Virus record (IMG/VR): IMGVR_UViG_3300049893_000289
Coordinates: 1-42,172 of that record
Reading direction: 5' to 3' (one strand)
Origin: a virus
Length of the DNA: 42,172 bases
The notes beneath the pieces are model-generated. The model made no database searches. It saw only the letters and a list, made by a program, of their open reading frames with translations, and was not told where the DNA came from. This document shows positions 7,799 through 29,371 of the stretch, piece by piece. A program made the translations under genes and the position numbers. Position 1 is the stretch's first letter. Each line of letters opens with the position of its first letter.

Positions 7799-8776
7799 AT
7801 GATTAGTACAAGACTTTTAATTTCAGACATCTCGGAAGTTCCTAGTGTCTGGGCATTTGAATATTACTGTAATCTTTCGGAGAAACTAGTAGGTCAGCAG
7901 TTAAAGATAAAGTCTCTGTTTAATCCAACAGAAAGAACACCAAGTTTTGTTCTTTATTGTAATAACGGAACCTATTTATTTAATGACTTTTCTACTGGCC
8001 GTAAAGGTAATTTTGTAAAACTTGTTGCAGACTTACATAATCTAGAATATTTTGAGGCTATACTAAAAATTATAGGAGACTATAATACTTTCTTATTACA
8101 AAATAATGGAGAGTATTCTGTAGGAGAATTTAAAAAACATTCTAAGTATGAAGTGGCTAAGCACACTGTAAGAAACTGGAATAATCTGGATGCTAAATAC
8201 TGGATGCAGTTTGGTATAGACTCTAAAACATTAGAGCATTTTAAAGTAGTAGCGCTAGATAATTATACTATGGAAAAGAGAGGTGAGGGTGAAACTGATG
8301 AGCTAACTATTAGCGGTCAGTATATTTATGGTTATTTACGTGAGGATAATAGCTTATATAAAATCTACCAACCTAAAGTAAAGGATCATAAGTTTCTTAA
8401 AGTAAAGAACTATGTACAAGGTACCGATCAGTTAACGTTTGAAAAACCTAATCTTGTTATCTGTAGTTCTCTAAAAGACGCAATGTGTCTTACTAAGTTT
8501 GGTTACAATGTAGAAGTTGTAGCTCCAGATAGTGAGAACACTGCTATTAGACGTGAGGTAATAGATATCTATAAGATTAAGTACCAGAGTATCTGTACTT
8601 TATTTGATAACGATGACGCCGGTGTAAAAGCAATGCATAAGTATAAGGATAACTTTAATATTCCTTATGTGCATTTAAAATTAGAGAAGGATCTATCCGA
8701 CTCTGTAAAAACTTATGGCGTGGAAGGAGTAAGAAAATTCCTACACCCTTTATTAAAAGAAGCATTAAAGAAATGA
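7799..8776 (+). CDS. DnaG-type Toprim primase, zinc ligands lost
   Basis: The primase makes RNA primers for replication. The N-terminal part of this 325-residue protein keeps the shape of the DnaG zinc-binding region (SLFNPTERTPSFVLY ... GTYLFNDFSTGRKGNFVKLV, about 40-80), but the Cys/His ligands are absent. The Toprim domain starts about 220: LVICSSLKDAMCL corresponds to the 'EGxxDxxxL' motif with SS in place of EG. VVAPDSEN follows, and LFDNDDAG supplies the metal-binding DxDxxG. The SSLKD variant resembles that in many phage primases. It stands after a terminator and overlaps the next gene by four bases (ATGA). The family call is strong; how it primes without zinc is open. Confidence 0.82.
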   Translation: MISTRLLISDISEVPSVWAFEYYCNLSEKLVGQQLKIKSLFNPTERTPSFVLYCNNGTYLFNDFSTGRKGNFVKLVADLHNLEYFEAILKIIGDYNTFLLQNNGEYSVGEFKKHSKYEVAKHTVRNWNNLDAKYWMQFGIDSKTLEHFKVVALDNYTMEKRGEGETDELTISGQYIYGYLREDNSLYKIYQPKVKDHKFLKVKNYVQGTDQLTFEKPNLVICSSLKDAMCLTKFGYNVEVVAPDSENTAIRREVIDIYKIKYQSICTLFDNDDAGVKAMHKYKDNFNIPYVHLKLEKDLSDSVKTYGVEGVRKFLHPLLKEALKK

Positions 8777-9192
8777 GTTGGATATATCAACATAGAGATT
8801 TTACCGAGGACATGATTCCTGATGGTGCTGTAGGCTTTGTATACCAGATGGATGTTATCATAGATGGTGAACGCAAGTCTTATATAGGTAAGAAGAACTT
8901 TTTTGCTGATGTCAAGACCAAGCTCAGTAAGAAGGCTATGCCTACTGACAAACGTAAGAAGACTTACAAGCGTGTAAGAAAAACTGTATATCAAAATTAC
9001 TATAGTAGTAATGAAACACTTAAGGCAGCTCACAAAGCTGGAGTACCTATCAAAAGGACTATCCTAAAGATATGTTACTCTAAGACAGAGCTCTCTTATC
9101 AAGAAGTTAAATACCAGTTTATGTGTGAAGTACTAGAAAAAGATTTCTGGTTAAACGCAAATATCCTGGGGAGATTTTATAAACAAAAGTAA
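8773..9192 (+). CDS. SegE-like GIY-YIG nuclease domain protein
   Basis: This 139-residue protein opens with GAVGFVYQMDVIIDGERKSYIGKKNF (about 19-44), where the FVY strand and SYIGKK strand match the GIY and YIG elements of the SegE-type GIY-YIG nuclease fold. Further on, YQNYYSSNETLKAA matches the 'YxGSS..L' segment of the same family, and EVKYQF carries the likely metal-binding Glu. SegE-like proteins include homing endonucleases, but this copy sits in frame with the operon (ATGA overlap upstream, one base gap downstream) and does not interrupt another gene. A structural or recombination endonuclease role is therefore as likely as homing. Confidence 0.7.
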   Translation: MSWIYQHRDFTEDMIPDGAVGFVYQMDVIIDGERKSYIGKKNFFADVKTKLSKKAMPTDKRKKTYKRVRKTVYQNYYSSNETLKAAHKAGVPIKRTILKICYSKTELSYQEVKYQFMCEVLEKDFWLNANILGRFYKQK

Positions 9193-9193
9193 T

Positions 9194-9544
9194 ATGGCAA
9201 GTACTAAAGTAGCAGCGCTAATGTCTCGTCTAAGAGACTTAGATATTCAGCGTGTAGAAATAAGATATGATGGCTCTGGAGATTCTGGATCCATAGAAGA
9301 TGTAGATTTTTATAAAGAAAAATGGGAAAGTGTAGATGATATAGCTGAAGATCTACGCGGACTATGTGAAGATTTAGGTTATCATATATTAAACCAACAC
9401 TATAACTGGGACTGGTATAATAATGATGGTGGATACGGTACCGTTATTATAACACCTGGTACAGACAATATTACTATTGATGGTTATGTTAGGGAGGTTA
9501 CTGAGGCAGGTGATTCAGTATCTTTAGAGAACATAGAATTCTAA
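9194..9544 (+). CDS. DUF6878-like protein
   Basis: This 116-residue acidic protein has the pattern of the DUF6878 family: a first strand with IRYDGSGDSGSIEDV (about 23-37), then a helical middle, then WDWYNNDGGYGTVIITPG (about 74-91) and a final strand set DNITIDGYVREV. The YDGSGDSG and NNDGGYG blocks are the recognisable features. No biochemical role is known to me. It is followed immediately by a DUF6915-like gene and lies upstream of the metallopeptidase/VWA and MoxR genes, suggesting one functional group. Its stop overlaps the next start by one base. Confidence 0.7.
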   Translation: MASTKVAALMSRLRDLDIQRVEIRYDGSGDSGSIEDVDFYKEKWESVDDIAEDLRGLCEDLGYHILNQHYNWDWYNNDGGYGTVIITPGTDNITIDGYVREVTEAGDSVSLENIEF

Positions 9545-9885
9545 TGGCTCATCCATATGATCATGCCCGCAGCTCCGTTAAGAAATGGGGCGGGGAGATT
9601 GGAGATTACCTACCTATACATGAATGGTTTGATGATACTAAAGGTTGGCTAGGAGATAGCCGTCACAGATTATTTAGACATCATAGTGAAGGTATCTTCC
9701 AATGTGAAGAAATATTTGGTATCTATATTACTAACTCAGCCGGTAAAAAGGTTATGGTTAGATATATAGGTGAACAACATGTAAAAGAAGATTGCAATGG
9801 TTATATACCAAGTGCAAAAGAATGGATTACTAACTTAGACAAGCCACCCTTGTGGATGCTAAAAACCCAAAAGATAAATGACTGA
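9544..9885 (+). CDS. DUF6915-like protein
   Basis: This 113-residue protein is rich in His, Trp and Asp: HPYDHARSSVKKWGGE (3-18), YLPIHEWFDDTKGW (22-35), RHRLFRHHSEGIF (40-52), then RYIGEQHVKEDCNGYIPS and EWI. This ordered set matches the DUF6915 family as I know it. The many conserved His/Asp/Glu residues suggest metal binding, but no activity is known. It is linked to the DUF6878-like gene by a one-base overlap and to the next gene by an eight-base overlap, so the three are probably made together. Confidence 0.7.
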   Translation: MAHPYDHARSSVKKWGGEIGDYLPIHEWFDDTKGWLGDSRHRLFRHHSEGIFQCEEIFGIYITNSAGKKVMVRYIGEQHVKEDCNGYIPSAKEWITNLDKPPLWMLKTQKIND

Positions 9886-10294
9886 AGTGCATAAACTTAC
9901 AGAGCAAAATTATTTTAACTTGCAGGATATGATTAACTCATCTGATACTGAGAATCATACCGTTGCAAAGGCTTTGATATCTAACCTAGATGTTAAAGAG
10001 AACCTTGTATATCTAATCCTATTGTATAAAGAGTTATCTTCTGCAAATAAAAGAAAAGACTTCTTTGGTGAGAAAGTAATGGCGGATCTTAAGTTATACT
10101 TTGATGTAGACTTAAGTTATGCCCATGTAGATTGGGATAACATAATAAACTATTTCTCTGCACCTAATCAAGATCCTTTACACTTAGGATTTTGTTTAAG
10201 CAGATTTTGTGCTGAGGTAACTAACCGCTTAAATGATGCGGGGTTTACGTTTATTAAGAACTATAAAATTAATCTAGTGCCTAAACATGGATAA
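9878..10294 (+). CDS. Hypothetical helical protein, 138 aa
   Basis: The protein is probably all-helical (NYFNLQDMINSS, AKALISNLDVKENLVYLILLYKEL, FFGEKVMADLKLYF, CLSRFCAEVTNRLNDAG). It has no catalytic motif, signal peptide or membrane span, and no family is recognised. It overlaps the DUF6915-like gene by eight bases and the metallopeptidase/VWA gene by eight bases. That placement suggests it acts with the MoxR/VWA pair, perhaps as an adaptor, but only position supports this. Confidence 0.65.
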   Translation: MTEVHKLTEQNYFNLQDMINSSDTENHTVAKALISNLDVKENLVYLILLYKELSSANKRKDFFGEKVMADLKLYFDVDLSYAHVDWDNIINYFSAPNQDPLHLGFCLSRFCAEVTNRLNDAGFTFIKNYKINLVPKHG

Positions 10295-11492
10295 ACATGA
10301 AAGTCTAGCCAAGACCGGTAAAGAACTAATGTTGAAGGAGCCTTTTTACGGGCTCTTTCTCATTGGTCTAAACAAGGTATGGCAGAAGAGAGTTCCTACC
10401 GCAGGTGTGAGTAAGAACAGTATTAATTATCAGCTTACTATAAATGAAGATTTCTGGAATAGCTTAAGCTCTGATCATAGACTAGGTCTACTAAAGCATG
10501 AGCTTTTGCATATTGCCTTCTTCCATTTAACTATGCATGATAACTTTGCAGATAAGCGCCTAGCTAACATAGCTATGGACTTAGAGATCAACCAGTATAT
10601 TGATCCACAGTATCTTCCTGAAGGAGGTTGTACTATAGATAGTGAAGCTTTTAAACAATATGACTTACCTGTTAAGGCCGGTTGTAGAGAGTATTATGAT
10701 ATCCTATCTAAAGAGAAAGAGAAACAGGAGCAAGAAGGTGGTGGATCTAAAAGTAAACTTCAAAAGATTCTAGAAGCTATGGCTAAAGGAGATAGTCACG
10801 ATGAAGATGGTGACCCGGTTCCTGACCATAACACATGGAAAGATTTTGAAGATATGCCTGAAGCTGAGAAGAAGCTTATGGAAAAGCAATTAGAGCATAT
10901 TCTTAAGGAGGTAGCGCAACAAGTTAAAGGTCGCGGTACTGTACCTGGAGAGATGCAAGGATTGCTTGATAAGATTAATAGTAAGGAACCACCAAAGTTT
11001 GACTGGCGTGGTTATCTTAGAAGATTTGCTGGGGGTTCCCAGAAAGTGTATACTAAAAAGCTTAGAAGAAAATATAATAAGCGTTTTGAAGAGATGGCAG
11101 GTTTAAAGATTAAACCAAGAAAACATATTCTTGTTGCCATAGATACTAGTGGTTCAGTATCAGATGATGAGCTCCGCGAGTTCTTTCATGAGATAGACCA
11201 TATTAATAAGACCGGTGCTGAGATTACTGTATTACAATGTGATACAAAGATTAATAGCATAAAGAAATATTCTGCCGGTGATACTGTAGAAATTTTTGGT
11301 AGAGGTGGGACCGAGTTTGATCCCGTAATAGAGTATTATAACGAGAATGTTAGAAACTATAGTTGTATGGTATATCTAACTGACGGAGAATGCTATTGTA
11401 GTGTAAAGCCAAGAGGCAAAATGTTGTGGGTAATTTCTTCTCGTTCACAGATGAATGAAGACTTACCAGGACCAAAGATCAAGTTAAATTAA
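10287..11492 (+). CDS. Putative metallopeptidase with VWA domain (DUF2201-like)
   Basis: The N-terminal domain of this 401-residue protein carries a zincin motif, HELLH (71-75, HExxH), in LGLLKHELLHIAFFH, followed by DKRLANIAMDLEINQYI, whose Asp/Glu may supply the third ligand. A charged linker spans about 150-230. The C-terminal domain is VWA-like with a complete MIDAS start DTSGS (286-290) and later GGTEFDP and YLTDGECY. This matches the DUF2201 metallopeptidase-VWA family, which is normally encoded beside a MoxR ATPase, as here. Such pairs are thought to remodel or activate partner complexes. In a phage it may act on host or virion assembly factors; this is inference. Confidence 0.82.
   Translation: MDKHESLAKTGKELMLKEPFYGLFLIGLNKVWQKRVPTAGVSKNSINYQLTINEDFWNSLSSDHRLGLLKHELLHIAFFHLTMHDNFADKRLANIAMDLEINQYIDPQYLPEGGCTIDSEAFKQYDLPVKAGCREYYDILSKEKEKQEQEGGGSKSKLQKILEAMAKGDSHDEDGDPVPDHNTWKDFEDMPEAEKKLMEKQLEHILKEVAQQVKGRGTVPGEMQGLLDKINSKEPPKFDWRGYLRRFAGGSQKVYTKKLRRKYNKRFEEMAGLKIKPRKHILVAIDTSGSVSDDELREFFHEIDHINKTGAEITVLQCDTKINSIKKYSAGDTVEIFGRGGTEFDPVIEYYNENVRNYSCMVYLTDGECYCSVKPRGKMLWVISSRSQMNEDLPGPKIKLN
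10334..10359 (+). other. Stem-loop near the start of the VWA gene
   Basis: GAAGGAGCC (10334-10342) pairs with GGCTCTTTC (10351-10359) with one G-U pair and an 8-base loop. It begins 47 bases after the ATG. No U-run follows, so it is not a usual terminator. A 9-bp stem of this kind can arise by chance; it is listed because similar hairpins lie at similar distances in other genes. Confidence 0.3.
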
Positions 11493-11504
11493 TAATTAAA
11501 GAAA

Positions 11505-12701
11505 ATGAGCAATCAAGTAAATCTTAACACAGACGAGTTAAAAACATTTGTAAATCACATTGTAAATAATAACCGCTATCTTCAAGAGAACGGTAAAATC
11601 CCTGTAGCAATTGCTGTAGAGGGTGAGGCCGGTATCGGTAAGACAAGTACTATATTGGAGATTGGTAAAGACCTAGGTCTTAATGTTGTTAAGATTAATC
11701 TTTCTCAGATTGAGGAGATTGGTGACTTAACCGGTTTTCCAGTTAAAGAATTTGAAGTAGTTAAGACTACTGAGGATGGAGCTAAGGTAACCAAGTGGGT
11801 ACCTGAGAATACCATGCCTATGTATATCCAAAATAAATATGTTCCAACTGGAGAAAAGCGTATGACACATGCTACTCCAGAGTGGATCCAAGGTAAAGAA
11901 GAAGGCGGTATCTTAATCCTTGATGACTATACTCGTGCTGACAGCAGATTCTTGCAGGCGTGTATGGAGTTAATTGACCGTCAAACGTATATCTCTTGGA
12001 AGCTACCAAAAGACTGGCACATCATCTTGACTACTAATCCTGATAATGGTGACTATAATGTTACTAGTATTGACGTAGCTCAGAAGACTCGTTTCATCAC
12101 TACTTATCTTAAGTTTGATGCAGAATGCTGGGCACGTTGGGCAGAGCAAAATGATATTGACTCTCGTTGTATTAACTTCTTGTTGATGCACCCTGAGACA
12201 GTAACACAAAAGACTAATGCTCGTAGTATTACCACTTTCTTTAACTCTATCTCTAGTGTAGAGAACTTTGAGGAGAGCTTACCACTAATCCAAATGATTG
12301 GTGAGGGTAGTGTAGGAGCAGAGTTTGCTACTTTGTTTACCACATTTATTCACAACAAGTTAGATAAGATGGTGTCTCCTAAAGACATGCTTACTAACGC
12401 AAGTTGGGAATATGTGAAAGGACAAATGGGATCAGCTATGGGTAAGGTAACAGATGATGGATACCGCGCAGATATTGCCAGCGTGTTAGCTCACCGTTTG
12501 ATTAACTTCACTGTAGTTTATTCTGAGAAGAATACTGTAGACCAAAAGATCTTAGATCGCATTACTAGCTTTATTACCGATAAGGACATCTTTAACAATG
12601 ACCTTAAGTATGCAATTATTAAAGGTATTGTAAATGGTAACAAAGCCAAGTTTACTAAGCTAATGATGAATGCTGAGATTGCTAAAATCGCTGTAAAATA
12701 A
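11505..12701 (+). CDS. MoxR-family AAA+ ATPase
   Basis: This 398-residue AAA+ protein has Walker A GEAGIGKT (40-47) and Walker B ILILDD (136-141). The pattern after Walker B (YTRADSRFLQACMELIDRQ) and the sensor-1 strand IILTTNPDNGDYNV are typical of MoxR/AAA_5 proteins. DVAQKTRF supplies the arginine-finger region. MoxR proteins work with VWA-domain partners; the gene just upstream encodes one. The start is preceded by an A-rich tract (TTAAAGAAA). Its last base is the first base of the next gene. The likely role is ATP-driven remodelling of a complex with the VWA protein as adaptor, target unknown. Confidence 0.85.
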   Translation: MSNQVNLNTDELKTFVNHIVNNNRYLQENGKIPVAIAVEGEAGIGKTSTILEIGKDLGLNVVKINLSQIEEIGDLTGFPVKEFEVVKTTEDGAKVTKWVPENTMPMYIQNKYVPTGEKRMTHATPEWIQGKEEGGILILDDYTRADSRFLQACMELIDRQTYISWKLPKDWHIILTTNPDNGDYNVTSIDVAQKTRFITTYLKFDAECWARWAEQNDIDSRCINFLLMHPETVTQKTNARSITTFFNSISSVENFEESLPLIQMIGEGSVGAEFATLFTTFIHNKLDKMVSPKDMLTNASWEYVKGQMGSAMGKVTDDGYRADIASVLAHRLINFTVVYSEKNTVDQKILDRITSFITDKDIFNNDLKYAIIKGIVNGNKAKFTKLMMNAEIAKIAVK

Positions 12702-13831
12702 TGAAAGGTAACCTTCTTAAAAACAATGTTACTCCTGAGATGCTTGCACAACTCCCCTTCATTGAGGGGGAGCTGCAAGTTATCATGACCAGGGGTAGTA
12801 GAACAGGGCTTGTATATAAACTATACAATGTAACTGAAGAAAATATAAAGAAAGCTGAGAAGCTTTTAGTTGGTGGTGATCTACCTACTCTACCAAAAAA
12901 GAGTAAGGTTTATATACTACCTAATTGTATATATACACAGGTGCAGATAAGAGAGATATGTAAAGTTCATGGGTTTACTATTACTCATGATATTAGTAAG
13001 GCAGACTTATTTGTAGGTAATGCTAATTGTATATTCCCTAGCATGGTTAATCAAGAATTCCCAGATGGACTAGGTAGTCATAGAACTACACTTTATAAGT
13101 ATGCTATGACTGATGACTTTGCTAAAGTAGCATTTACTACAAGGTATCCAGACTTTATAGAGCCTGCTACCAACACTGATACAGATGTTTACTTTAGTAG
13201 TTATTACTATGGCAACATAGATTTTTGGCCTGTTCTATATGGTACAGATGAATACTATGCATTACTTAGCGGAGAAGCTGTAGAAATTCTGCATAGAATT
13301 CTTTCTGGTAAAGTACCCGTTGTAAATGAAGAGAAGATGTTTAACTCCATTGACCGTCTAATTATAGATGATGATATGTTTAACACGCTACAGTTAATGT
13401 TTAACTCTAATAGAGAAGATAAGACTATAGCTTGTGAGTTACTCTTTAATGCTAATTATGAAAAGTCTTATTATAGAATCTATAAACTTATTCAAGAGAA
13501 TTACTATGAGATAGAATCTTATATGAATAGAAAGAACAAAGAGATTTTCTATAAGACATTTCCTGCTAGAGAAATCCGCAGTAATACCTATGAAGAAGAT
13601 CTTAATCACTTGTATAACGTAGGTCATCTTACTGAAGATGCATATATGGATATTTTATATACCAAAGCTGCTGAGGAGATTGAGAGCTTTACTAGAAATA
13701 TGGGAAATCTTAGAAAGTTCTTTGCTGTAGATATGTTTATATCCAAGAACTATGATGAGTTTATAGAATCTAAAAAACCAAAAGTAAATGAAGAAAATGT
13801 TGAAAGTACTACAGCTAACAGTCCCTTCTAA
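12701..13831 (+). CDS. Unknown protein, first of a tandem paralogue pair
   Basis: This 376-residue protein starts on the last base of the MoxR stop codon. Residues about 65-105 (KVYILPNCIY..., ICKVHGFTITHDISKADLF) look like the first half of a BRCT-like or Rossmann-like alpha/beta unit. A helical C-terminal part holds MFNSNREDKTIACELLFNAN then YEKS. The protein encoded next shows both elements in the same order (GIKIIRDADKAD; MFNSTDKSNH..., NANYEQS), so the two are paralogues. Function is unknown. Linkage to the MoxR/VWA pair suggests they are substrates or partners. A strong hairpin lies 42 bases after the start. Confidence 0.75.
   Translation: MKGNLLKNNVTPEMLAQLPFIEGELQVIMTRGSRTGLVYKLYNVTEENIKKAEKLLVGGDLPTLPKKSKVYILPNCIYTQVQIREICKVHGFTITHDISKADLFVGNANCIFPSMVNQEFPDGLGSHRTTLYKYAMTDDFAKVAFTTRYPDFIEPATNTDTDVYFSSYYYGNIDFWPVLYGTDEYYALLSGEAVEILHRILSGKVPVVNEEKMFNSIDRLIIDDDMFNTLQLMFNSNREDKTIACELLFNANYEKSYYRIYKLIQENYYEIESYMNRKNKEIFYKTFPAREIRSNTYEEDLNHLYNVGHLTEDAYMDILYTKAAEEIESFTRNMGNLRKFFAVDMFISKNYDEFIESKKPKVNEENVESTTANSPF
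12743..12779 (+). other. Strong stem-loop near the start of the first paralogue
   Basis: CTTGCA (12743-12748) pairs with TGCAAG (12774-12779). Inside, CTCCCCTTC (12752-12760) pairs with GAGGGGGAG (12764-12772) with one G-U pair and a 3-base loop. This gives 15 pairs in 37 bases, well above the local GC content. It encodes LAQLPFIEGELQ, so it must also serve coding. No U-run follows. Confidence 0.45.
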
Positions 13832-14954
13832 TAGTAACACGTTTGAGTTAGAAGTAACGCATGTTATTCCAGATGCATCTGGTAATATTACTAAAGGTTG
13901 GGGTCGTCAGACACCAGCTAATCCTGTAGATAAAACCAAAGAGTTAGACATTAACTCAATTAAAACTATATACTTTGCTTCTAAAGTAAATGTACCTAGA
14001 GAAAGAGTAAGACCTTTCTTGGAAGAAAAGGGTATTAAGATCATTAGAGATGCAGATAAAGCTGATGCTGTAATTATTTCAGATGATACGTATGACTATA
14101 ACGTAACTAACTGGTGGGGTAATGCATGTGGTGCAACATCTATGTTACATTTTTTAAGAAGTTTCAATGGTGCTCTAAATACTAACGAAATTATAATACA
14201 GCTAGAGGCTCATGTAAACTCAGGTGTACTTGATTCTAATTATGTAATCTATAATATGAATCAACTTGATGGTGTCTATAGGCATAATCCTAATTGTGTT
14301 AAATCAAACGCAAGCTGGGGTGTTCATCATACTAGTCCGGGTAAATCTGATTTTGGTGGAGATGCTCAAGCTGTAGATAGAGGTTACATATCTCAAGTTA
14401 AAGATCATACTATTTATGATCCTACCTATGTTTCTAGATGCTATGACCAAGCCGCAATTCTTAAACACCTTGGTGAAAATATTATAGATAAAGAATCATA
14501 TGAAAGTATTAGAACCATGTTTAATAGTACTGATAAGAGTAACCATCTTATTGCTATGACCATTATGGCTAATGCTAACTATGAGCAAAGCTTTATGTAT
14601 TTAGCATTCTTACTAGAGGAGTTTGGTAGAGGTCCTATCTATAATCACAGTTATAGAAATACTGTAGGGTTTAAGTCTCTAACTAAATGGATGGGGTATA
14701 ATAAATATCGTTTTGATAAAGATACCATCCTGGACATAAGTTTGGAGAAGAAGTTACTTACACGTGAACTATTGGCAATAGTTAAAGATTATTATCTTAA
14801 AGGTGCTAATGCTTATAGTTCTAACTTTGACGTATCTGAGATTAAGCTAAATGCTGAGTCACAAGAAAAGATTGATAAATATTTTAACGAGAAAGAGAAT
14901 GGTAACAGACTTCCAAGCGGAGGAGAACTTCTACAAGAAGAAGTATCACTTTAG
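13788..14954 (+). CDS. Unknown protein, second of a tandem paralogue pair
   Basis: This 388-residue protein overlaps the preceding gene by 44 bases; a second in-frame ATG at 13797 would shorten the overlap. Residues about 58-100 (IKTIYFASKVNVPRERVRPF..., KGIKIIRDADKADAVIIS) align in pattern with the first paralogue, as does the later block (IID, MFNS, NANYEQS, LLEE). Between them is an insertion rich in G, W and H (NWWGNACGATSM, WGVHHTSPGKSDFGGDAQ). No enzymatic motif was recognised. The divergence between copies suggests distinct, perhaps heteromeric, roles. Confidence 0.75.
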   Translation: MKKMLKVLQLTVPSNSNTFELEVTHVIPDASGNITKGWGRQTPANPVDKTKELDINSIKTIYFASKVNVPRERVRPFLEEKGIKIIRDADKADAVIISDDTYDYNVTNWWGNACGATSMLHFLRSFNGALNTNEIIIQLEAHVNSGVLDSNYVIYNMNQLDGVYRHNPNCVKSNASWGVHHTSPGKSDFGGDAQAVDRGYISQVKDHTIYDPTYVSRCYDQAAILKHLGENIIDKESYESIRTMFNSTDKSNHLIAMTIMANANYEQSFMYLAFLLEEFGRGPIYNHSYRNTVGFKSLTKWMGYNKYRFDKDTILDISLEKKLLTRELLAIVKDYYLKGANAYSSNFDVSEIKLNAESQEKIDKYFNEKENGNRLPSGGELLQEEVSL

Positions 14955-15876
14955 TTATTCCGGGCTAAACAAGTTATTGTATAGCCCAAGATCATTTTAT
15001 AGTCATTATATTCTTAATCAAAGAGAAGATAAAATGGAGCAGCATCTGATTGAGGGCAGACTGCTTCATTGCCTTCTTTTAGAAGAAGAAAATTTTGATC
15101 AACAATTTATTGTATCTTTAGGTAAATTACCTGGAGATAGCGCTAAGAAAGTTTTAGATAAAGTATTTGTAAGAGCATTAATAGATGGTTATACAGAACT
15201 ATCTTTGGAAGATCTTTCTAGTGATATCTTACTGGTATTACAGGAAATAAATCTTCATCAAAGTCTTAAGACTGATGAACAACGTGTAGAGAAAGTACTA
15301 ACTGATGAAAATAAAAGTTACTATGATTTTCTACGCACTAAGGGTGATAAGCTTGTCATTGACAACGAGACCCTGGAGAGAGTAAAAATATCTGTAGATG
15401 AAGTAAAAGGTAATAGTAAAGCTTGGGGCTTGCTTGGTATCGGTAACCCGGATACAAAGAGCGAGGTGCCACTCCAGATTGATTTGCTTAACTATGGCTT
15501 TGGACTTAAAGGTATAGTAGATAACATCCGTGTAGCCCACGATGAAAAGACTATCTACATCAATGACCTGAAAACTACAGGAAAGCTGATTCAGGATTTT
15601 CCTGAGACTGTAGAGTATTACAAGTACTGGCTACAAGCTGCTGTATATGTAAGACTCGTTAGAGCATCTATGCCGGAGTTAAGTAATTACAAAATTAAGT
15701 TTCATTTCGTAGTGGTTGATAAGATTAACCAGTGTTACGCATTTGAAGTTAGTCAAGTAACACTTAACAAGTGGTCAGATGATCTAGATGATGTGCTAAA
15801 AATAGCGGCGTATCATTACGATTCCCGCAATTATGACTTACCTTATATTTATAAGGAAGGTAACGTAATATTGTAA
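14899..15876 (+). CDS. PD-(D/E)XK exonuclease (RecE/Cas4-like, DUF3799 type)
   Basis: The start at 14899 gives 325 residues; an upstream ATG at 14851 is open but would overlap the previous gene by 104 bases and adds a basic leader not expected for the family. The N terminus YHFSYSGLNKLLYSPRSFY is the typical opening of this family, followed by GRLLHCLLLEEENF (the G-x-x-x-H motif). The catalytic core is GFGLKGIVDNI (Asp), IYINDLKTT (D-x-K) and YWLQAAVYV (Q-x3-Y). Such nucleases resect double-stranded ends to make substrates for single-strand annealing, so it should work with the Sak4-like ATPase and the SSB-like protein. Confidence 0.8.
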   Translation: MVTDFQAEENFYKKKYHFSYSGLNKLLYSPRSFYSHYILNQREDKMEQHLIEGRLLHCLLLEEENFDQQFIVSLGKLPGDSAKKVLDKVFVRALIDGYTELSLEDLSSDILLVLQEINLHQSLKTDEQRVEKVLTDENKSYYDFLRTKGDKLVIDNETLERVKISVDEVKGNSKAWGLLGIGNPDTKSEVPLQIDLLNYGFGLKGIVDNIRVAHDEKTIYINDLKTTGKLIQDFPETVEYYKYWLQAAVYVRLVRASMPELSNYKIKFHFVVVDKINQCYAFEVSQVTLNKWSDDLDDVLKIAAYHYDSRNYDLPYIYKEGNVIL

Positions 15877-21942: not shown

Positions 21943-22073
21943 TACTTTTTACCCATTTTTTTCATAGTCATTTTAGACTTAGTAGTTCCGCCTTTAGCAA
22001 AGTTTTTTTGGAACTTTCTAGTTACTGCACTCATTGTAGCAGCTACTACTGGATTTTTTTTCTTTTCTGCCAT
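21942..22073 (-). CDS. Tiny lysine-rich protein, 43 aa
   Basis: The frame starts at the ATG 22073-22071 and ends at TAA 21944-21942. The 43 residues (MAEKKKNPVVAATMSAVTRK..., KGGTTKSKMTMKKMGKK) are very basic, with a short helix and an AKGGTTK element resembling the KKGG elements downstream. Function is unknown; a small virion or DNA-binding protein is plausible. It follows the spanin-like gene by 11 bases and is coupled to the next gene through TAATG. Confidence 0.65.
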   Translation of the reverse strand: MAEKKKNPVVAATMSAVTRKFQKNFAKGGTTKSKMTMKKMGKK

Positions 22074-22084
22074 TGTATTATAGT

Positions 22085-22540
22085 TTAATGTGTTATAGTA
22101 TATATAAGACTACTGAATAAAAATACGCCAATTCCTCCAAATATCCAATTATTTTTTCTAGCAGTATGAAGTTTATCTTGGGTATCAGCTAATGAATCCC
22201 TTGATGCTTCTAGGCTTACATGTAAAGCAGAGTTTTTATTGACGCACTCTGTTGTTCTTTCATTTGCCAAAGTGATTTGTTCACTAGCCTTCTTGATCTC
22301 GTACTCCTTATCAAGGATCCTGAGATTAAGGGTGTTGATGATTTCATCTTTGCGCTTAACGCTAGCTTTGACATAGTCATAGTCCACAATGATTTTGAGG
22401 AGTTGCTCCTCTTGCTTATCGGTAAAGAAGATCCCTTTAGTACCATCCCAGTTAATTCTTTGGGGTGTAAGTTGTCCATAGTTGGTCCCGTTGCTTATCA
22501 TCAGCAGTAGGGATAAGAGCAATAGTTTGATCGCGTTCAT
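22085..22540 (-). CDS. Coiled-coil envelope protein, spanin-like
   Basis: This 151-residue protein has an N-terminal signal-like segment (about 1-22, KLLLLSLLLMIS), a long helical, probably coiled-coil body (about 42-128) and a C-terminal membrane span (about 131-149, WIFGGIGVFLFSSLIYTI). No lipobox cysteine follows the signal, so it is not a classical outer-membrane spanin lipoprotein. Its 5' end overlaps the upstream TM/coiled-coil gene by 89 bases, the nested layout typical of Rz/Rz1 spanin pairs. It may join inner and outer membranes at lysis; an unusual unimolecular or paired spanin is the inference. Confidence 0.65.
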   Translation of the reverse strand: MNAIKLLLLSLLLMISNGTNYGQLTPQRINWDGTKGIFFTDKQEEQLLKIIVDYDYVKASVKRKDEIINTLNLRILDKEYEIKKASEQITLANERTTECVNKNSALHVSLEASRDSLADTQDKLHTARKNNWIFGGIGVFLFSSLIYTITH

Positions 22541-22817
22541 CTTTATCTTGTTTATCTTGTTGATTAATTACGTTAATCTGGTTAATTCTCTGAAGATCTA
22601 CAATCTTTAAACTGTCTTGTACAAGCTTAAACTTTAGAGAGTCTATTTCCATAGCATGTTTGGTATCTTTAGCAAAGGCTTTAGATTTTAAATCTTCTAT
22701 ATTAGCCTCCTTAACTTTTATTTTATACAAAAGTACAGCTATCCATATACCTATTGCTAATATACCTGCAAATACTAATATCTCAATTAGTAGATTCTTC
22801 TGTTTCCGGTTTGGCAT
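22452..22817 (-). CDS. Rz-like inner-membrane spanin candidate
   Basis: This 121-residue protein has a short basic N terminus (PNRKQKN), one membrane span (about 9-31, LLIEILVFAGILAIGIWIAV) and a periplasm-facing helical, coiled-coil domain (about 34-105, rich in K, D, Q), the topology of an i-spanin (Rz). It overlaps the holin gene upstream by 35 bases and the spanin-like partner downstream by 89 bases. In lysis, such proteins bring the outer membrane to the inner after the endolysin has cut the wall. Sequence homology to known spanins is not evident, as usual for the class. Confidence 0.65.
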   Translation of the reverse strand: MPNRKQKNLLIEILVFAGILAIGIWIAVLLYKIKVKEANIEDLKSKAFAKDTKHAMEIDSLKFKLVQDSLKIVDLQRINQINVINQQDKQDKDERDQTIALIPTADDKQRDQLWTTYTPKN

Positions 22818-23055
22818 TTTCTTCAGGTTTAGGTAAATTCATTTTTTGGGTAAATACTCCCTCAATCATAGTTCCTACAAATACTCCACCTCCTATAAAC
22901 ATAATAGTGTTATACATATACTCCGGGGTTTTATACTCTGAGAATGTAGCTATCCATGCTAAGGCTGACCCTGTTAAGATACAGTAAAGACCTACAAGTC
23001 TTTTAGAACTTTGGTCTCCGTCTTTACTTAGTATAGATAGTATCCACTTCTTCAT
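22783..23055 (-). CDS. Putative holin
   Basis: This 90-residue protein starts basic (MKKWILSILSKDGDQSSKR), has two membrane spans (about 20-39 and 46-68) and ends in a hydrophilic acidic tail (PKPEENAKPETEESTN). The size, topology and place directly after the endolysin gene (one-base overlap) fit a class II holin that opens or depolarises the inner membrane at lysis time. Function is inferred from context. Confidence 0.7.
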   Translation of the reverse strand: MKKWILSILSKDGDQSSKRLVGLYCILTGSALAWIATFSEYKTPEYMYNTIMFIGGGVFVGTMIEGVFTQKMNLPKPEENAKPETEESTN

Positions 23056-23600
23056 TAGAACTCTCTTAATAGGGTGTATGTAAAGTTAGTTAACCCTGAA
23101 TCTTTACAAGCTTGTATAAGACTGGCAAATTCTTTAGGGTTGTTTAGTACTTGACAACCAGCTGACCATTTCTCTATAAGACTTGAGATAGCATTAGGGT
23201 TAGCACGGTGTATGTTAATACCAAATAGACCGGTATCTTCTTTACCCTGCTCTTCTGCAGTCTCGTCTTTATCATTGTCTCTATATACTGTAACAGGCTT
23301 AGCTTGAACTAAAGCTTCATACTGCCCTTTGTGTTTACCTAGTTTCCAACTATCTACATATTGTCCAGGTTTAAGAACAGCTGTACCTTTAGGGTTCATC
23401 ATGTTTAGTAACCAGTGTCTTCCTGGATTTGTAGTACAAGAATATGGTGTAGTACCAGGACCATTTACCACATAGATTATATCATCAAACTTGTTATTGA
23501 TGTTATCTTTAGACCTAATACCAATCAAATGAAATTTAGGCCATGCATAACCTAGTCTAGCAAACTCTGCTTCTAGTTCTGTGTAAGAATATTTTTTCAT
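23055..23600 (-). CDS. Endolysin with L,D-transpeptidase-like catalytic motif
   Basis: The start at 23600 (MKKYSYTELEAEFARLGYAW) gives 181 residues; an upstream ATG at 23627 would add nine residues and overlap the giant gene. The catalytic signature is in the C-terminal half: GINIHRAN followed after a gap by KWSAGCQVL, a His ... S-x-G-C arrangement as in YkuD-type L,D-transpeptidases (catalytic Cys in SAGC). The N-terminal part (IGIRSKDN..., FDDIIYVVNGPG, CTTNPGRHWL) fits phage lysins of this kind. It probably cuts or remodels peptidoglycan. No signal peptide is seen, so it would rely on the holin downstream. Confidence 0.75.
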   Translation of the reverse strand: MKKYSYTELEAEFARLGYAWPKFHLIGIRSKDNINNKFDDIIYVVNGPGTTPYSCTTNPGRHWLLNMMNPKGTAVLKPGQYVDSWKLGKHKGQYEALVQAKPVTVYRDNDKDETAEEQGKEDTGLFGINIHRANPNAISSLIEKWSAGCQVLNNPKEFASLIQACKDSGLTNFTYTLLREF

Positions 23601-23617
23601 ATAGCGAATATAATTAA

Positions 23618-26600
23618 TTATCTCCAATTTTGTCCTTTAACCCAGTTAGTAATAGCCATATCTGGGGATAAAGTTTTACCTGTTAATCCTAGTGAGCGAG
23701 CTAAGTAAGTTAATACTTTAGAACCTTCGCCCCAATCTTCTCCTTTTTCTTGCATCCAGAAATAAGGTCCTTCACGTTGATCAAAGTATGCCTTAGAATC
23801 ATCTATTCCAAATAAACTGTTACCAGCATGTAATGCTAATCCACCGATAATCTTTTTATAGTTATCCCATGTATTATTCATAGATACAGACTCCATACTA
23901 AGTAAGTCGATATAGTTATCTGCGCCGTATCCTGGGATAGGTAACCACTGCATCTGTTCATTTTTTAATTGCATAGTTAAATAAAGAGCATGGTTTGTTA
24001 ACCAACCACCTAGTTTAAACGGCTCTTCATTATCACTTACTCCAAAAAATGGTAATGGGCCTGACCGCTCTCTTAGTTTTCTAAATTTATCTTCATCAGC
24101 GTCATCAAATCCAAATATTAAAGAGATAGCCATACTAAATGCTACTACGTAAGCTACGTCCATAATGGTTTTTAATACAGCTGCCTTTTCGCTATCTGAT
24201 ACAAATCTGGCGTATTCCCCTCTGGTTTTGATTGTTCTGCCAAAAGCTCTTAATGCCTCTACGTAATAACCCATAGCTACATCGCCTACTGCTGCGTCAA
24301 ACCTATATCTTGGGTCTCTCCATGAACCGCGGTATTGTACACGATTTAAGAACATACGTAGGAACCAGCGTTTGAATGCTATAGCAAATCGGAATGCTAC
24401 ATATCTATCTGCTTCTGCGTAGTCAAACTTAGCAAAAGAACCGGCTAGATTATTTGTAACACCCTGTACTTTATTTTTAAACTGTTTAAACTTACTTCCG
24501 CCTATACCCCATTCTGGATCTACCCCTTCCTTTAATCTAATCTGACCATCTACAGTTTCCCAAGCATCTATATAAGCTATACGTTTTGTAACACCATCTA
24601 TAGTTTGCTCTACGGATTTCTCATGGTTCATCATGGCGCCGAAGATGGATAATGTTGAATTTAATTCTGTCCATTTACGGAAGCTTGTCATCCAGCTTAA
24701 TCCTCCTAAGGCATCTTTAGTTAAAGATCTTGATCCATGTTCTACAAACTTATCTTGGAAGCGGCCTTGATATGCATCAAAGATTTCTACCAGCTGAGTA
24801 TTGTGAGACTTAGGTCCAAACTTATAAAGCTCTAAACTAATTTCCCAAGATACTTTATTAGACCATGCTACACCTTTTGCATAGTTAGCATGGTTAAAGT
24901 ATTTACCAGCAGCAGATTCAATTAATGTTTGTACTCTTAAGCCAAATGAGTTCTTTAATGCTGATGGAATATCCATAGCAAAGTATCCAAAAGCTGACGC
25001 AGACATAATGTTATCTGCTAGCTTATGAACCCATACGTTATCAGAGTCTGCTCCGATAACACCTTTGTTCATCTTACCCTCAAACTCTCTTTCTACAAAG
25101 TTGTCTATAGCTTTTTGTCTTACCGATTTTTCTCCTTTCTTAATAAGCTTAGCACCTCTCTCAAACATATTATTTATAGAATAATTAGAGAGCATGCTTT
25201 TACTTAAGCCTTTTACTTCACGCACTGTATTAGCAGGATCTGATAATACTGTTTGTAAAGCTCTGGCCATAGGATTCATTTCTATAAGAGCTCTTTGTTT
25301 TTCTGCAGATATCATGTATCTAAGCATTCCGTGAGAAAGATCTAAAGAAGTTTCCTCAATTGGAATATTTGAAAGACCTGTAATAGGTACTCCGGCAAAC
25401 TGATCATCAAACAAGTCCGTTTTAATCATCTCTTGACTAGTCTGGAAGTTGTAACCTCTGTCGTAGTCATCTGCTGATCCAACAAATAATGCCTTAATAC
25501 GTTTTACCCAACTGCTTATAGGATTTTCCATTTTACCCTCTCCGTCAAACATATTACGCTTAGCTTCATAACCACTACGCATAAATCTTGGGATGTCTAA
25601 GAATAACTTAGATGGGTTAGGATTTCCTTCTTGAAATTGTAAATGCCACTTCATTAAAGCAAGTAATGCTCTATGTAAAGTAGGGTCGTTTTTAGCTACA
25701 TCAAAATACTGTTGATTAACAAAACGCTTATCTTCTATGTCCAGTCTTGGTAACCATTGACCTTTGTTATCCATATTAGCTAGAGTTGGATCTCCCTTCT
25801 CTAATGCCTCTAACATAGTAACTGGTTTTGTTACGTACTCATCTTTTACGATTCTCTCATAATAGTTCATATTAGGTAAAGCAGGAATAGTTTCTTCTTC
25901 ACCACTAGAGTTAATAAACGTATGAGTTTCAAGGTACTCTGCAGATCTAGGTCTTGTTACACTCCAGGCTTTAACGCGTTCTATTTTAATATAAGCATCA
26001 CCTTCTTTAGTAAATGCTTTTTTCATAGTATGGTTTTTCTCAAACCAGGCTTTAAATTCTGGGCTCTGCTCACCTAAGAAATCTAAGAATTCTTCGTTAA
26101 GGATTTGACTAGCATTATCCTTATCTATGTCTTTAAATCCGAAACGAGACTCCATTTCATCTAGATCTACTAAGCTCATGTAGTTATTAACTACGTCTAA
26201 GTAATAATCTGTAGGAATTGACTGTTGTAAATCAGCAAGTTCATCATAGAGTTCATATAATCTTTTTTTATCTGCAGGAGATAATCCTTCCTTTTCTTTT
26301 TTTAATAGGAGTTCGTTTGCCTCAAATCTTTCTTCTGCAGTAACCTCTTCACCATTTTTAATTTTTGCAAAGTAGTTACTTAGTTTAGCATGTTCAATAG
26401 CTGTTAGACCAGAAGCTTTTGCAATGTCTTGCTTCATTATATCTATAAGCTCCTGAGATCTTTTAATTTCAGCAATGTTTTTAACATCCATAGCTGTAGC
26501 CTCTGGCTGCATGTCGTCATCCCTGTAAGGATTCATCAGCTGTGCTAGTTTCTCATACTGCTTAGCAATATCTAATTCTAGATCTGGATCTTTAGGTAGC

Positions 26601-29371
26601 TTAGCTGTAAGAGATTTGATTTCCTCAAGTATTTCTTTTTGTCTCTCGTAGAAACTATCTTTAATCTTGATGCGGGTATTCTCCAACATCCACTTATTTC
26701 TTAATTTAAGGAAATGAGCTGTACCCTTTTTAAATCCTCGACCAACTAAATATTCTTCATGAGCAGCAAGTGCGTTTCTAAATAGATCAGGAATAAGCTC
26801 TTCTCTATATAGTTCTCTAGATTTATTTCTAAACTCTCTAAGTCTTTCCGCAATAGCTACATCCTCTGGATTTTTTAATTGTCCAGTCACAGTATAGTTA
26901 CTATGAAGCTGTCTGTATTCTCTCCATAGAGTTTCTAGCTCTTCTGCAGCGTCTAGCCTTTCGGGAGTAGTTTGCACACCCATACCCGTTGTAAGGTTCT
27001 GGATTTTAGCAAGTATCTCATTTCTAGCAGCTTCTGCCTTAGCACCTATAGTATCATTATCTCCTTTTCTAAATATTTCGTATCTCTCATAATACTCTTT
27101 AGTATACGGCGCATGGAAATAAGTTCTTTCAAATCTCTGAAATTCTACTTTTAACTTAAGAACTTCAGTAGTATCTCCTGATTCTAGCGCTGCTTCTGTA
27201 GCTATTCTAATATCTTCACGCATCTTTTCCATTACAGAACGGTAGTCCTTAAATGGATTTAAGAATGTGTAAACTTCCTTTTCTTCAAATAACCCTGTGT
27301 CAGGATTTTTTCCTCCCTTCTTATCTCTAAATGTAGCTCTTTTTCCAAACTCTGCAGGATTAGATTGCTTATAACCAGCTGCCTCGAGCAAAGGTTTTAC
27401 TTCAGTTAAAAACTTGTTACCCTTATTCTGTGCAGTAGTAAATACATCTGTCATTTTATTTTTAACAAATGTGGCAAAACCAAATACTACTGGATCCTGG
27501 TTATAGATGTAACCTTCTAAGAATGAGTTAAGAGCATGTGCATCTCCTAACTTACCAGTCATTAAGTACTCTATCTTCTCGTCAGTTAGATATGCTCCAT
27601 CCTTATAGCTAATCATTTTTAAAGTCTCATAGCTATTCTTCTCTGCAGATGTAAGCGTTGTTCCAGAATCCATCTTAGCTTTAAGGCCTAAGAATGTTCT
27701 AAGAGGTTCTCCACTTAATCCCCAGTAATCTTTCTGGCGCATCTCAATAATATCCTGAGGTGCATTTCTTTTCTTTAAGTCATCCATAAGCTCGGCAAAT
27801 CTTTTATCTATTTGCTCGCGCATAGGACCGATTGTATCTTTAATAATTTCAGAGGTACCCGCCAAGTAAATTTTACTTGTGTGGTTTCTAGAAGTCATAA
27901 TCTCACTATTGATAGACCCTACTAATTCATATATAGGGTTATCGGTAGTAATGTTTCCTTCAGCTACTTCATTGTCTAACTTCTGTTGGAAATCATCTAA
28001 GAAGTTCTCCCAGTAATTAATTACGTTATTATAATAAAATACAGTGGCTACATTATCCTTTGAGTTAGGATCCTTAATAAGTTTAACTAACTCAGAGTTA
28101 AGACGGCGTACCATATATTTAGTACGTAGTAAACTATTTATAAATGCTTCGGTATGCTTCTTAGCAAACTCGGCATCTTTTCTTAGCTCAGCCATTTCAT
28201 TTGTAAGTACTTGACTTATATCTTGGTACGGCGCTAAGTTTTTATATATTTCTTGTAAGTCAGATCTTTGGAATGAGTCCTTTAGAATCTGCTTCATCCC
28301 CTCATAGTCCTTATTCTTTTCTAAAAGACGGATTTGTTTCTTAATCATCTCAAAGAAAAGGTTAGTGCTTTTCTGGAGTTCTCCTTGAGAGTAAGACTTC
28401 ATAGCTTCTACGTAGTCGTTAACTTCACTAATATAAGCTACTACATCCTCATCACTTACCTCACTTAAGTCTAACTGAAACTCTTTAAGCATTAACATGT
28501 CGGCAAGTTCAGCAATAGTAGTATCAGCATTAAGCTTTTCTACTTTTACTTTAGCTCCTTCTCTGTTTCCAAATAGCTGACGTAAGATCTGACGTAATGC
28601 AAATAAGAAGTTTTTAATAAAATTATTAAATGCTGAGTCTTCTCTTGTTTCTGCAGAATGAGTTAAAGCCATTACTAAAGCTTCCTCCATAATTACTGGA
28701 TCATTTTCAGCTAATTCAGGATATCCCTGTCTAGCCTGCTCCATTATTACAGTACCCCTTCCTGAACTCATCAACTCTTGAGTAAGTTTAGTGAAAAGCT
28801 TAGGATTGTTAATTCTTATAGACCTAACCAGCGGGTGAGCAAATTCGTGGAATACGGTTTTTTCTGTTACTAATTCGGGTAACATATAAACCTTACCACC
28901 AAAGAAGAAAGCAGCTTGCCCTCTCCAAGGGTTTTGAGAATTCTTTGTAATCTCTTGGGCTTCTTGCGGCGTAATAAATACTGCAGGTACATCTAAGTTT
29001 GTACTTAGTTTTTCTGCCAAAAGATTAACAGTAGACCTTGCTTTAGCTTTAGCTTGAGATATAGTATCTAGTTTTATAGGATTCTTTAAAACACGATACT
29101 CAGGGAAAGCGTTCATGTTATCCGCAAAGCCGCTAAGCTCTTCAGTCATTACCACTTGTCTTTTATCAGAGTTCATCCAGACATCATTGTCTTCTAGCAT
29201 TTGCTCAAACTCTTCTATAGTAGGGACTTGTGGAGCTTCTCCTAGCATTAATGAGCTATTCTTCATCATGTAGGCACGCATAACTTCTTTGCGTGATCTA
29301 GCTCCTAACCCTAGCTTTTCAGCATGCTGGATTAGTTCATCTAGTGTATTGGGTAGTGGGCAAGCGGTCAT
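23618..29371 (-). CDS. Giant virion-type protein with zincin motif (1,917 aa)
   Basis: Its ATG overlaps the stop of the larger giant gene (ATGA), so the two are translationally coupled. Near the N terminus, VFHEFAHPLVRS contains HEFAH (His175, Glu176, His179), a zinc-metallopeptidase HExxH motif. The centre (about 350-1150) is largely helical, with many charged coiled-coil-like stretches. Late in the chain, a hydrophobic segment (about 1732-1752, DVAYVVAFSMAISLIFGF) may insert in membrane. The C terminus is rich in W, G and Y. Giant proteins at this position in crAss-like phages are virion cargo delivered to the host; a protease active in maturation or ejection is the inference. No RNA polymerase motif was found in this chain. 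Confidence 0.75.
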   Translation of the reverse strand: MTACPLPNTLDELIQHAEKLGLGARSRKEVMRAYMMKNSSLMLGEAPQVPTIEEFEQMLEDNDVWMNSDKRQVVMTEELSGFADNMNAFPEYRVLKNPIKLDTISQAKAKARSTVNLLAEKLSTNLDVPAVFITPQEAQEITKNSQNPWRGQAAFFFGGKVYMLPELVTEKTVFHEFAHPLVRSIRINNPKLFTKLTQELMSSGRGTVIMEQARQGYPELAENDPVIMEEALVMALTHSAETREDSAFNNFIKNFLFALRQILRQLFGNREGAKVKVEKLNADTTIAELADMLMLKEFQLDLSEVSDEDVVAYISEVNDYVEAMKSYSQGELQKSTNLFFEMIKKQIRLLEKNKDYEGMKQILKDSFQRSDLQEIYKNLAPYQDISQVLTNEMAELRKDAEFAKKHTEAFINSLLRTKYMVRRLNSELVKLIKDPNSKDNVATVFYYNNVINYWENFLDDFQQKLDNEVAEGNITTDNPIYELVGSINSEIMTSRNHTSKIYLAGTSEIIKDTIGPMREQIDKRFAELMDDLKKRNAPQDIIEMRQKDYWGLSGEPLRTFLGLKAKMDSGTTLTSAEKNSYETLKMISYKDGAYLTDEKIEYLMTGKLGDAHALNSFLEGYIYNQDPVVFGFATFVKNKMTDVFTTAQNKGNKFLTEVKPLLEAAGYKQSNPAEFGKRATFRDKKGGKNPDTGLFEEKEVYTFLNPFKDYRSVMEKMREDIRIATEAALESGDTTEVLKLKVEFQRFERTYFHAPYTKEYYERYEIFRKGDNDTIGAKAEAARNEILAKIQNLTTGMGVQTTPERLDAAEELETLWREYRQLHSNYTVTGQLKNPEDVAIAERLREFRNKSRELYREELIPDLFRNALAAHEEYLVGRGFKKGTAHFLKLRNKWMLENTRIKIKDSFYERQKEILEEIKSLTAKLPKDPDLELDIAKQYEKLAQLMNPYRDDDMQPEATAMDVKNIAEIKRSQELIDIMKQDIAKASGLTAIEHAKLSNYFAKIKNGEEVTAEERFEANELLLKKEKEGLSPADKKRLYELYDELADLQQSIPTDYYLDVVNNYMSLVDLDEMESRFGFKDIDKDNASQILNEEFLDFLGEQSPEFKAWFEKNHTMKKAFTKEGDAYIKIERVKAWSVTRPRSAEYLETHTFINSSGEEETIPALPNMNYYERIVKDEYVTKPVTMLEALEKGDPTLANMDNKGQWLPRLDIEDKRFVNQQYFDVAKNDPTLHRALLALMKWHLQFQEGNPNPSKLFLDIPRFMRSGYEAKRNMFDGEGKMENPISSWVKRIKALFVGSADDYDRGYNFQTSQEMIKTDLFDDQFAGVPITGLSNIPIEETSLDLSHGMLRYMISAEKQRALIEMNPMARALQTVLSDPANTVREVKGLSKSMLSNYSINNMFERGAKLIKKGEKSVRQKAIDNFVEREFEGKMNKGVIGADSDNVWVHKLADNIMSASAFGYFAMDIPSALKNSFGLRVQTLIESAAGKYFNHANYAKGVAWSNKVSWEISLELYKFGPKSHNTQLVEIFDAYQGRFQDKFVEHGSRSLTKDALGGLSWMTSFRKWTELNSTLSIFGAMMNHEKSVEQTIDGVTKRIAYIDAWETVDGQIRLKEGVDPEWGIGGSKFKQFKNKVQGVTNNLAGSFAKFDYAEADRYVAFRFAIAFKRWFLRMFLNRVQYRGSWRDPRYRFDAAVGDVAMGYYVEALRAFGRTIKTRGEYARFVSDSEKAAVLKTIMDVAYVVAFSMAISLIFGFDDADEDKFRKLRERSGPLPFFGVSDNEEPFKLGGWLTNHALYLTMQLKNEQMQWLPIPGYGADNYIDLLSMESVSMNNTWDNYKKIIGGLALHAGNSLFGIDDSKAYFDQREGPYFWMQEKGEDWGEGSKVLTYLARSLGLTGKTLSPDMAITNWVKGQNWR

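Follow-up and report, generated by a model that had tools for sequence, protein, structure and literature searches.

Positions 9194-14954 of the IMG/VR virus record IMGVR_UViG_3300049893_000289, a viral DNA of 42 kb that is taken here at its full length as the window, hold seven open reading frames (ORFs), all on the + strand. A zincin metallopeptidase fused to a VWA domain and a MoxR-like AAA+ ATPase form a pair within this module, and three related proteins, orf138, para1 and para2, flank the pair. Neighbouring ORFs overlap by 1, 8, 8, 1, and 44 nucleotides (nt), and there is a single gap of 12 nt. A preliminary description of this DNA had listed six genes here, linked by overlaps or very short gaps. 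The tight linkage holds and all of the genes it named are present, but the count is seven; orf138 had been omitted. Its central observation, a conserved MoxR-like ATPase with a zincin-VWA partner inside the replication cluster of a crAss-like phage, is borne out as a real module.

Relatives of the module were gathered from IMG/VR with several queries (VWA, MoxR, para2, and a para profile), and the main count comprises 56 non-redundant loci in which both flanks are covered. The genes, with their lengths in amino acids (aa), are as follows.

9194-9544, + strand: DUF6878 protein, 116 aa (Pfam PF21798, E=5e-13); upstream of VWA in 31/56 relatives
9544-9885, + strand: DUF6915 protein, 113 aa (Pfam PF21866, E=3e-42); present in 34/56 relatives
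9878-10294, + strand: orf138, 138 aa; stand-alone copy of the shared helical domain (residues ~3-122)
10287-11492, + strand: zincin metallopeptidase-VWA fusion, 401 aa (PF13203, DUF2201_N, E=2e-18; PF09967, DUF2201, E=4e-18)
11505-12701, + strand: MoxR/midasin-type AAA+ ATPase, N4 gp24-like, 398 aa (phrog_1297, E=1.4e-36)
12701-13831, + strand: para1, 376 aa; BRCT-like head with an insert (~12899-13366) and shared helical domain (~13355-13705)
13788-14954, + strand: para2, 388 aa; BRCT-like head (~13950-14471) and shared helical domain (~14481-14786)
14899-15876, + strand (ORF listed from 14851): flanking PD-(D/E)XK exonuclease (PF12705, 2e-10); 3' of the module in 54/56 relatives

The exonuclease is the boundary of the module and lies outside it.

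Across the relatives, a member of the paralogue family follows MoxR in every one of the 56 loci, as two copies in 33 and as one in 23. The same is seen in wider samples (57/57 MoxR-anchored and 50/50 paralogue-anchored non-redundant loci), and VWA plus MoxR are also held by 54/55 paralogue-anchored loci, several loci being short fragments. In every relative covered on both sides VWA and MoxR are neighbours, and orf138 lies upstream of VWA in 41/56. A profile search of 14 contigs of 110-124 kb finds the members of the family confined to the module interval. Gene order is kept over dozens of contigs even though MoxR identity falls to 55% and paralogue identity to ~24%; thus, the linkage, which like the gene content was computed directly, is far beyond chance. 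From these occurrence counts, the conserved core is VWA, MoxR, and paralogue, mostly accompanied by orf138, while DUF6878 and DUF6915 are optional. The preliminary description had suggested asking whether the whole set travels together across crAss-like phages. VWA, MoxR, and paralogue are indeed together in every locus with both flanks covered, but the two DUF genes occur independently of them; and the set, present throughout the sampled lineage, was not found in crAss001 or in the searched half of phi14:2, two other crAss-like phages considered below. The association is also asymmetric: VWA and MoxR are found in many other phages that have no para family, whereas the family without the pair is unseen in this sample.

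The family of orf138, para1 and para2

The three proteins belong to one family. Iterated hidden Markov model searches started from any one of them recover the other two, and hhalign comparisons of orthologue-only alignments connect orf138 with para2 (97%, E=1.6e-11), orf138 with para1 (93%, E=4e-7), and para2 with para1 (99.7%, E=3e-26). They have in common a helical domain, marked by the motif S-x-D-K-x-N...A..I....N...S..YL. In para1 and para2 an alpha/beta head, which orf138 lacks, is joined to it on the N-terminal side. In a maximum-likelihood tree (152 sequences, quick method), the 44 copies that come first of two are completely separated from the 44 that come second (SH-aLRT 100); single copies number 55 on the para2 side and 9 on the para1 side. 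So clean a split of first and second copies means one ancient duplication, after which the gene order was fixed and either copy could later be lost.

The head was examined through AlphaFold2 models, which are good for both proteins (pLDDT 81 for para2; pLDDT 85 and pTM 0.74 for para1). For para2 the best match by fold in the PDB (Foldseek) is the BRCT domain of PARP1 (prob 0.96, E=0.059), with other BRCT domains lower. For para1 the BRCT matches are 7scy, a single BRCT (prob 0.94, rmsd, the root-mean-square deviation, 0.9 over 40 columns), PARP1 (0.87), and REV1 (0.72). BRCT (PF00533) is also the most recurrent Pfam match among the relatives, in 5/20 para1 and 3/22 para2 proteins, always below the cut-off and with E of 0.02-0.04 at best for single members. 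Taken together, the models and these matches lend moderate support to a BRCT-like head. Several results count against it: the alpha/beta domain of MiaB scores similarly for para1 (prob 0.97), the E-values of the BRCT folds exceed 0.05, and PF00533 run directly on the window yields nothing over the curated BRCT cut-off. Because of this last result the head is labelled "BRCT-like" rather than BRCT.

Other comparisons of the family returned little. No Pfam or PHROG match was found for orf138, and no significant family for the paralogues in Pfam, NCBIfam or PADLOC. Searches of solved structures by sequence with the para family, and of GenBank phages by tblastn with para2, gave no match, and no cofactor-binding or catalytic motif was seen in the paralogues. 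Isolated weak matches (Doc toxin, 0.0066; sigma70 r1.1, 0.042; UPF0004, 0.0016, in one member) are not shared by relatives and were judged to be chance. Viral structures matched nothing but uncharacterised proteins, which come from a crAss-like virus, a podovirus that has two paralogues of this kind, and an uncultured phage.

The end of para2 overlaps the listed ORF of the exonuclease (14851-14954), whose probable conserved start is at 14899. The conserved para2 tail SGGELLQEEVSL was considered as a docking peptide and rejected: it is conserved because the overlap also encodes, in another frame, the conserved N-terminus of the exonuclease, TDFQAEENF, and loci with a short overlap lack the tail.

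The VWA-zincin, the ATPase and insertions in their motifs

The two central proteins retain the residues expected of a zinc metallopeptidase, of a metal ion-dependent adhesion site (MIDAS), and of an AAA+ ATPase. Conservation was scored over 83 VWA proteins and 74 ATPases of the lineage, and the motifs lie at the following positions.

10497-10511, + strand: HELLH zinc-binding motif, residues 71-75 (H71, E72, and H75 at least 97%; E72 and H75 83/83)
10578-10592, + strand: D98-x-E100-x-N102, candidate region of the third zinc ligand (at least 97% conserved; the identity of the ligand is putative)
11142-11156, + strand: MIDAS DTSGS, D286-S290 (D286, S288, and S290 83/83)
11310-11312 and 11382-11384, + strand: residues completing the MIDAS, T342 (83/83) and D366 (at least 97%)
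11622-11645, + strand: Walker A GEAGIGKT, residues 40-47 (G40, G43, G45, K46, and T47 74/74)
11922-11939, + strand: Walker B DD (140-141) with R144-A145 (74/74 or at least 97%)
12090-12092, + strand: R196, arginine-finger candidate (74/74 or at least 97%)

The HELLH reported earlier in the VWA partner is thus confirmed, and with its zinc-binding motif intact the zincin is predicted to be able to cut. The VWA-zincin matches the N4 gp25-like family (phrog_1314, E=1e-66), and both HExxH and the MIDAS D-x-S-x-S are kept in six distant homologues, from a Moorella phage, AR9, phiKT1024, and three Schitoviridae. PHROGs labels this family "HNH endonuclease", as do many phage records; the label looks wrong, as the domains are those of a metallopeptidase and a VWA protein. 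In the ATPase, sensor 1 (TxNP) is invariant in the 74 sequences, Walker B is D-D rather than D-E, and more than 100 positions are at least 97% conserved. Its best sequence match in the PDB is midasin (E=4e-7), and the generic Pfam families AAA_3 (MoxR) and AAA_5 fall below their cut-offs.

In several relatives these motifs are interrupted. Group I introns in MoxR are confirmed by Rfam; the insertions in VWA are of the size of homing endonucleases, with long ORFs, and stay below the Rfam threshold. In MoxR the insertions lie within Walker A (after residue 44), at 74/75, and after Walker B (146/147); in VWA they lie within the zinc-binding motif (HE-L|LH), at 99/100 in the D98/E100 motif, and at 341/342 of the MIDAS. 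A single module can hold up to three (relative locus L044). The interrupted loci are L279 (688-3937), L044 (8645-14236), L012 (2407-4632), L062 (11146-12888), L067 (7694-9913), and L270 (424-3724). Self-splicing and homing elements favour invariant codons. Insertion inside active-site codons is therefore consistent with these motifs being functionally constrained, and marks them independently of the alignments. A parallel insertion may be present in Escherichia phage Pollock (3199-4987), in which a gene for an HNH homing endonuclease follows the N4 gp24-like ATPase annotation and apparently splits the ATPase.

The phage and known relatives of the pair

The module is part of a replication cluster on the + strand that reaches ~20.7 kb and includes the following genes.

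4766, + strand: DnaB-like helicase
6301, + strand: Sak4-like protein
7799, + strand: primase
8773-9192, + strand: SegE-like GIY-YIG endonuclease, immediately upstream of the module
16886, + strand: PolB, 3' of the exonuclease
20348, + strand: MazG-like pyrophosphohydrolase

The GIY-YIG gene is present in 26/56 relatives and possibly encodes a free-standing homing endonuclease connected with the introns that burden the module genes. The - strand holds two giant ORFs of 1917 and 4248 aa. In a single frame, the larger (29368-42114, -) combines an HExxH motif, a DFDID motif of the RNA-polymerase type, and, at the C-terminus, a RecD/PIF1-type superfamily 1 (SF1) helicase; homologues of its core are phi14:2 gp66 and crAss001 Gp50. 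The RNA polymerase (RNAP; 1e-17) and the primase (1e-18), compared with phi14:2 and crAss001, are homologues of Crassvirales proteins, and a crAss-type TerL and major capsid protein are found in 8/9 related contigs tested (related contigs are 110-124 kb). These homologies place the phage in a crAss-like lineage known from uncultured sources only. Upstream of the gene starts the sequence is A-rich, and no Shine-Dalgarno motif is seen there. A close relative of MoxR, sought in bacterial genomes as a clue to the host, was not found.

In crAss001, and in phi14:2 searched at positions 1-50000 (the replication half), neither VWA, nor MoxR, nor a paralogue was found; thus, the module appears to be specific to its lineage rather than common to crAss-like phages as a group. 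Between primase and exonuclease, crAss-like phages have a slot for variable cassettes, filled here by zincin-VWA, MoxR, and para. In crAss001 (MH675552) gp75-gp79 (27583-32805) place a JAB-like (sub-threshold) and a ThiF protein there, and in phi14:2 g037-g041 (22025-27669) place a gamma-glutamyl cyclotransferase/RimK-like/amidoligase set.

The system had been thought possibly undescribed. However, a pair of metallopeptidase-vWA and MoxR is already known from group 2.2 jumbo phages, for which a role in virion assembly was proposed (PMC7824862), and it also corresponds to gp24/gp25 of N4, a core pair of the Schitoviridae. The VWA-zincin occurs in 260 GenBank phage records (best at 26-30% identity), and as early as 2007 phage 0305phi8-36 was noted to have a two-subunit chaperonin of the MoxR type. 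As here, the jumbo-phage pair consists of a zincin-VWA fusion beside a MoxR-type AAA+ gene, but no third-component family was seen beside it: in six distant phage loci (Moorella phage MTATph1, Vibrio SBP1, phiKT1024, AR9, nACB1, and Pollock) no para or orf138 was found next to the pair (hhalign probability <6), although a remote homologue could escape this search, whose controls worked for para2 and orf138 and failed for para1 against the orf138 profile. In N4, the homologous ATPase and VWA-zincin likewise lie near helicase and DNA polymerase genes; there, however, the ATPase precedes VWA, no para/orf138 homologue is nearby, and the similarity of the ATPases is remote (22-25% identity). Like N4 and AR9, the crAss phages are virion-RNA-polymerase phages; this tie was not used as evidence, since the polymerase is present in crAss001 but the pair is missing.

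Two sets of bacterial and cellular systems resemble the module in their logic. The vWA-MoxR ternary systems (VMAP, iSTAND, FtsH; PMC7159879) also join a constant MoxR-vWA pair to a lineage-specific third component, and their use of effector-associated domains (EADs), small non-enzymatic domains common to neighbouring genes, is similar. However, they are bacterial conflict loci, while the module lies in a phage replication cluster and includes a zincin; and in Pfam and NCBIfam searches of the seven module proteins no VMAP, iSTAND domain or effector fusion was found, the vWA being fused to the zincin only. In NorQ/NorD, RavA/ViaA, and midasin (Rea1), as here, an AAA+ ring works with a MIDAS-bearing VWA protein in remodelling. 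Their clients are respiratory enzymes or pre-ribosomes, and to our knowledge their VWA partners have no zincin. Thus, the pair itself is known. What is new is the three-protein family, the moderately supported BRCT-like head of its two large members, the ancient duplication with fixed order, and the introns inside catalytic motifs.

Possible functions of the module

Tentatively, we favour a function early to midway through infection, in which the pair is an AAA+/MIDAS remodelling protease and the flanking paralogues are its dedicated adaptors, probably acting on a protein that is bound to DNA at the replication machinery or close to it. In such a complex the AAA+ ring would bind and drive the VWA-zincin subunit, the MIDAS would grip an acidic residue of a partner, and the zincin would cut the target. 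The MIDAS of NorQD contacts an acidic residue of its client (PMC9976466), and it is from NorQD, with midasin as a second model for the grip, that this contact and the ring-driven remodelling are transferred. The paralogues would dock on the machine through their shared helical domain, and para1 and para2 would bring it to the target by means of their BRCT-like heads. As a docking domain without a head, orf138 could be a regulator, a competitor, or a co-adaptor. The setting fits: the module sits among helicase, Sak4, primase, nuclease, and PolB genes. From all of this we infer complex formation, proteolysis, an adaptor role, DNA targeting, and action in phage replication rather than on a host complex.

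Several observations, besides those on the head, weigh against this proposal. The entire region from primase to PolB keeps its order in the lineage, so linkage alone is no proof of a complex, and dedicated clients would give the same linkage as adaptors. Interaction, activity, and target rest on inference, and four virion proteins near the gp24/25 homologues in roseophage RPP1 point to assembly instead.

The strongest rival, which we consider unlikely, is that the paralogues are clients. MoxR and VWA-zincin would then be the assembly chaperone or processing protease of a para1/para2/orf138 complex, itself the working part, such as a DNA-binding replication or recombination factor. MoxR-VWA pairs usually adjoin the gene of the complex that they mature (NorQD/cNOR, RavA/ViaA), in the contigs searched the para family always accompanies the pair, and a para1/para2 order fixed after one duplication is what subunits of a hetero-oligomer would show. 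However, many loci keep one paralogue only, mostly of the para2 type and sometimes of the para1 type, so that a fixed heterodimer is not needed, and the paralogues lack a visible cofactor-binding or catalytic motif.

An improbable alternative is that the pair helps to assemble virion proteins or to mature them by proteolysis, as proposed for the jumbo phages. Besides that published proposal for a homologous pair and the neighbours of gp24/25 in RPP1, these phages have giant virion-type RNA polymerase polyproteins, as does N4. However, the module is part of the replication cluster, it and the giant RNAP genes are on opposite strands, and crAss001 has the same type of RNAP without the pair. Timing, by analogy, also argues against late virion assembly: in AR9 an early promoter is annotated just upstream of the homologous ATPase gene, whereas 41/43 virion proteins are late (PMC5312081), and gp24/25 are middle genes of N4. 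Least probable is the idea of the preliminary description, host takeover or counter-defence by a machine that strips, remodels or cleaves a host complex: early expression in AR9 would fit it, and the differing primase-exonuclease cassettes of crAss-like phages would suit lineage-specific interaction genes, but the very strong constraint on MoxR and the total retention in the lineage resemble an essential replication function rather than an arms-race gene, a defence-library search gave only weak, ATPase-only matches, and no result here favours a host complex over a phage complex.

A more far-reaching form of the adaptor proposal, possible though rather doubtful, is that the module is the phage counterpart of the vWA-MoxR ternary systems, with BRCT-headed adaptors that direct the AAA+/zincin machine to protein complexes on DNA; it would, for instance, strip or cleave proteins bound to the host nucleoid or to phage DNA under replication. 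If so, it would be a replication-fork remodelling protease without a known phage equivalent. More generally, MoxR with metallopeptidase-vWA is a core pair of N4-like phages that recurs in jumbo and crAss-like phages, and neither client nor function was found for it in the literature searched. The inseparable three-member family offers concrete, testable candidates for its partner, and in two of them the head may be of the DNA-repair (BRCT-like) type. Identifying that partner would also put right the PHROG label on the zincin-VWA protein, and could explain what this conserved but unexplained pair does in several families of phages.

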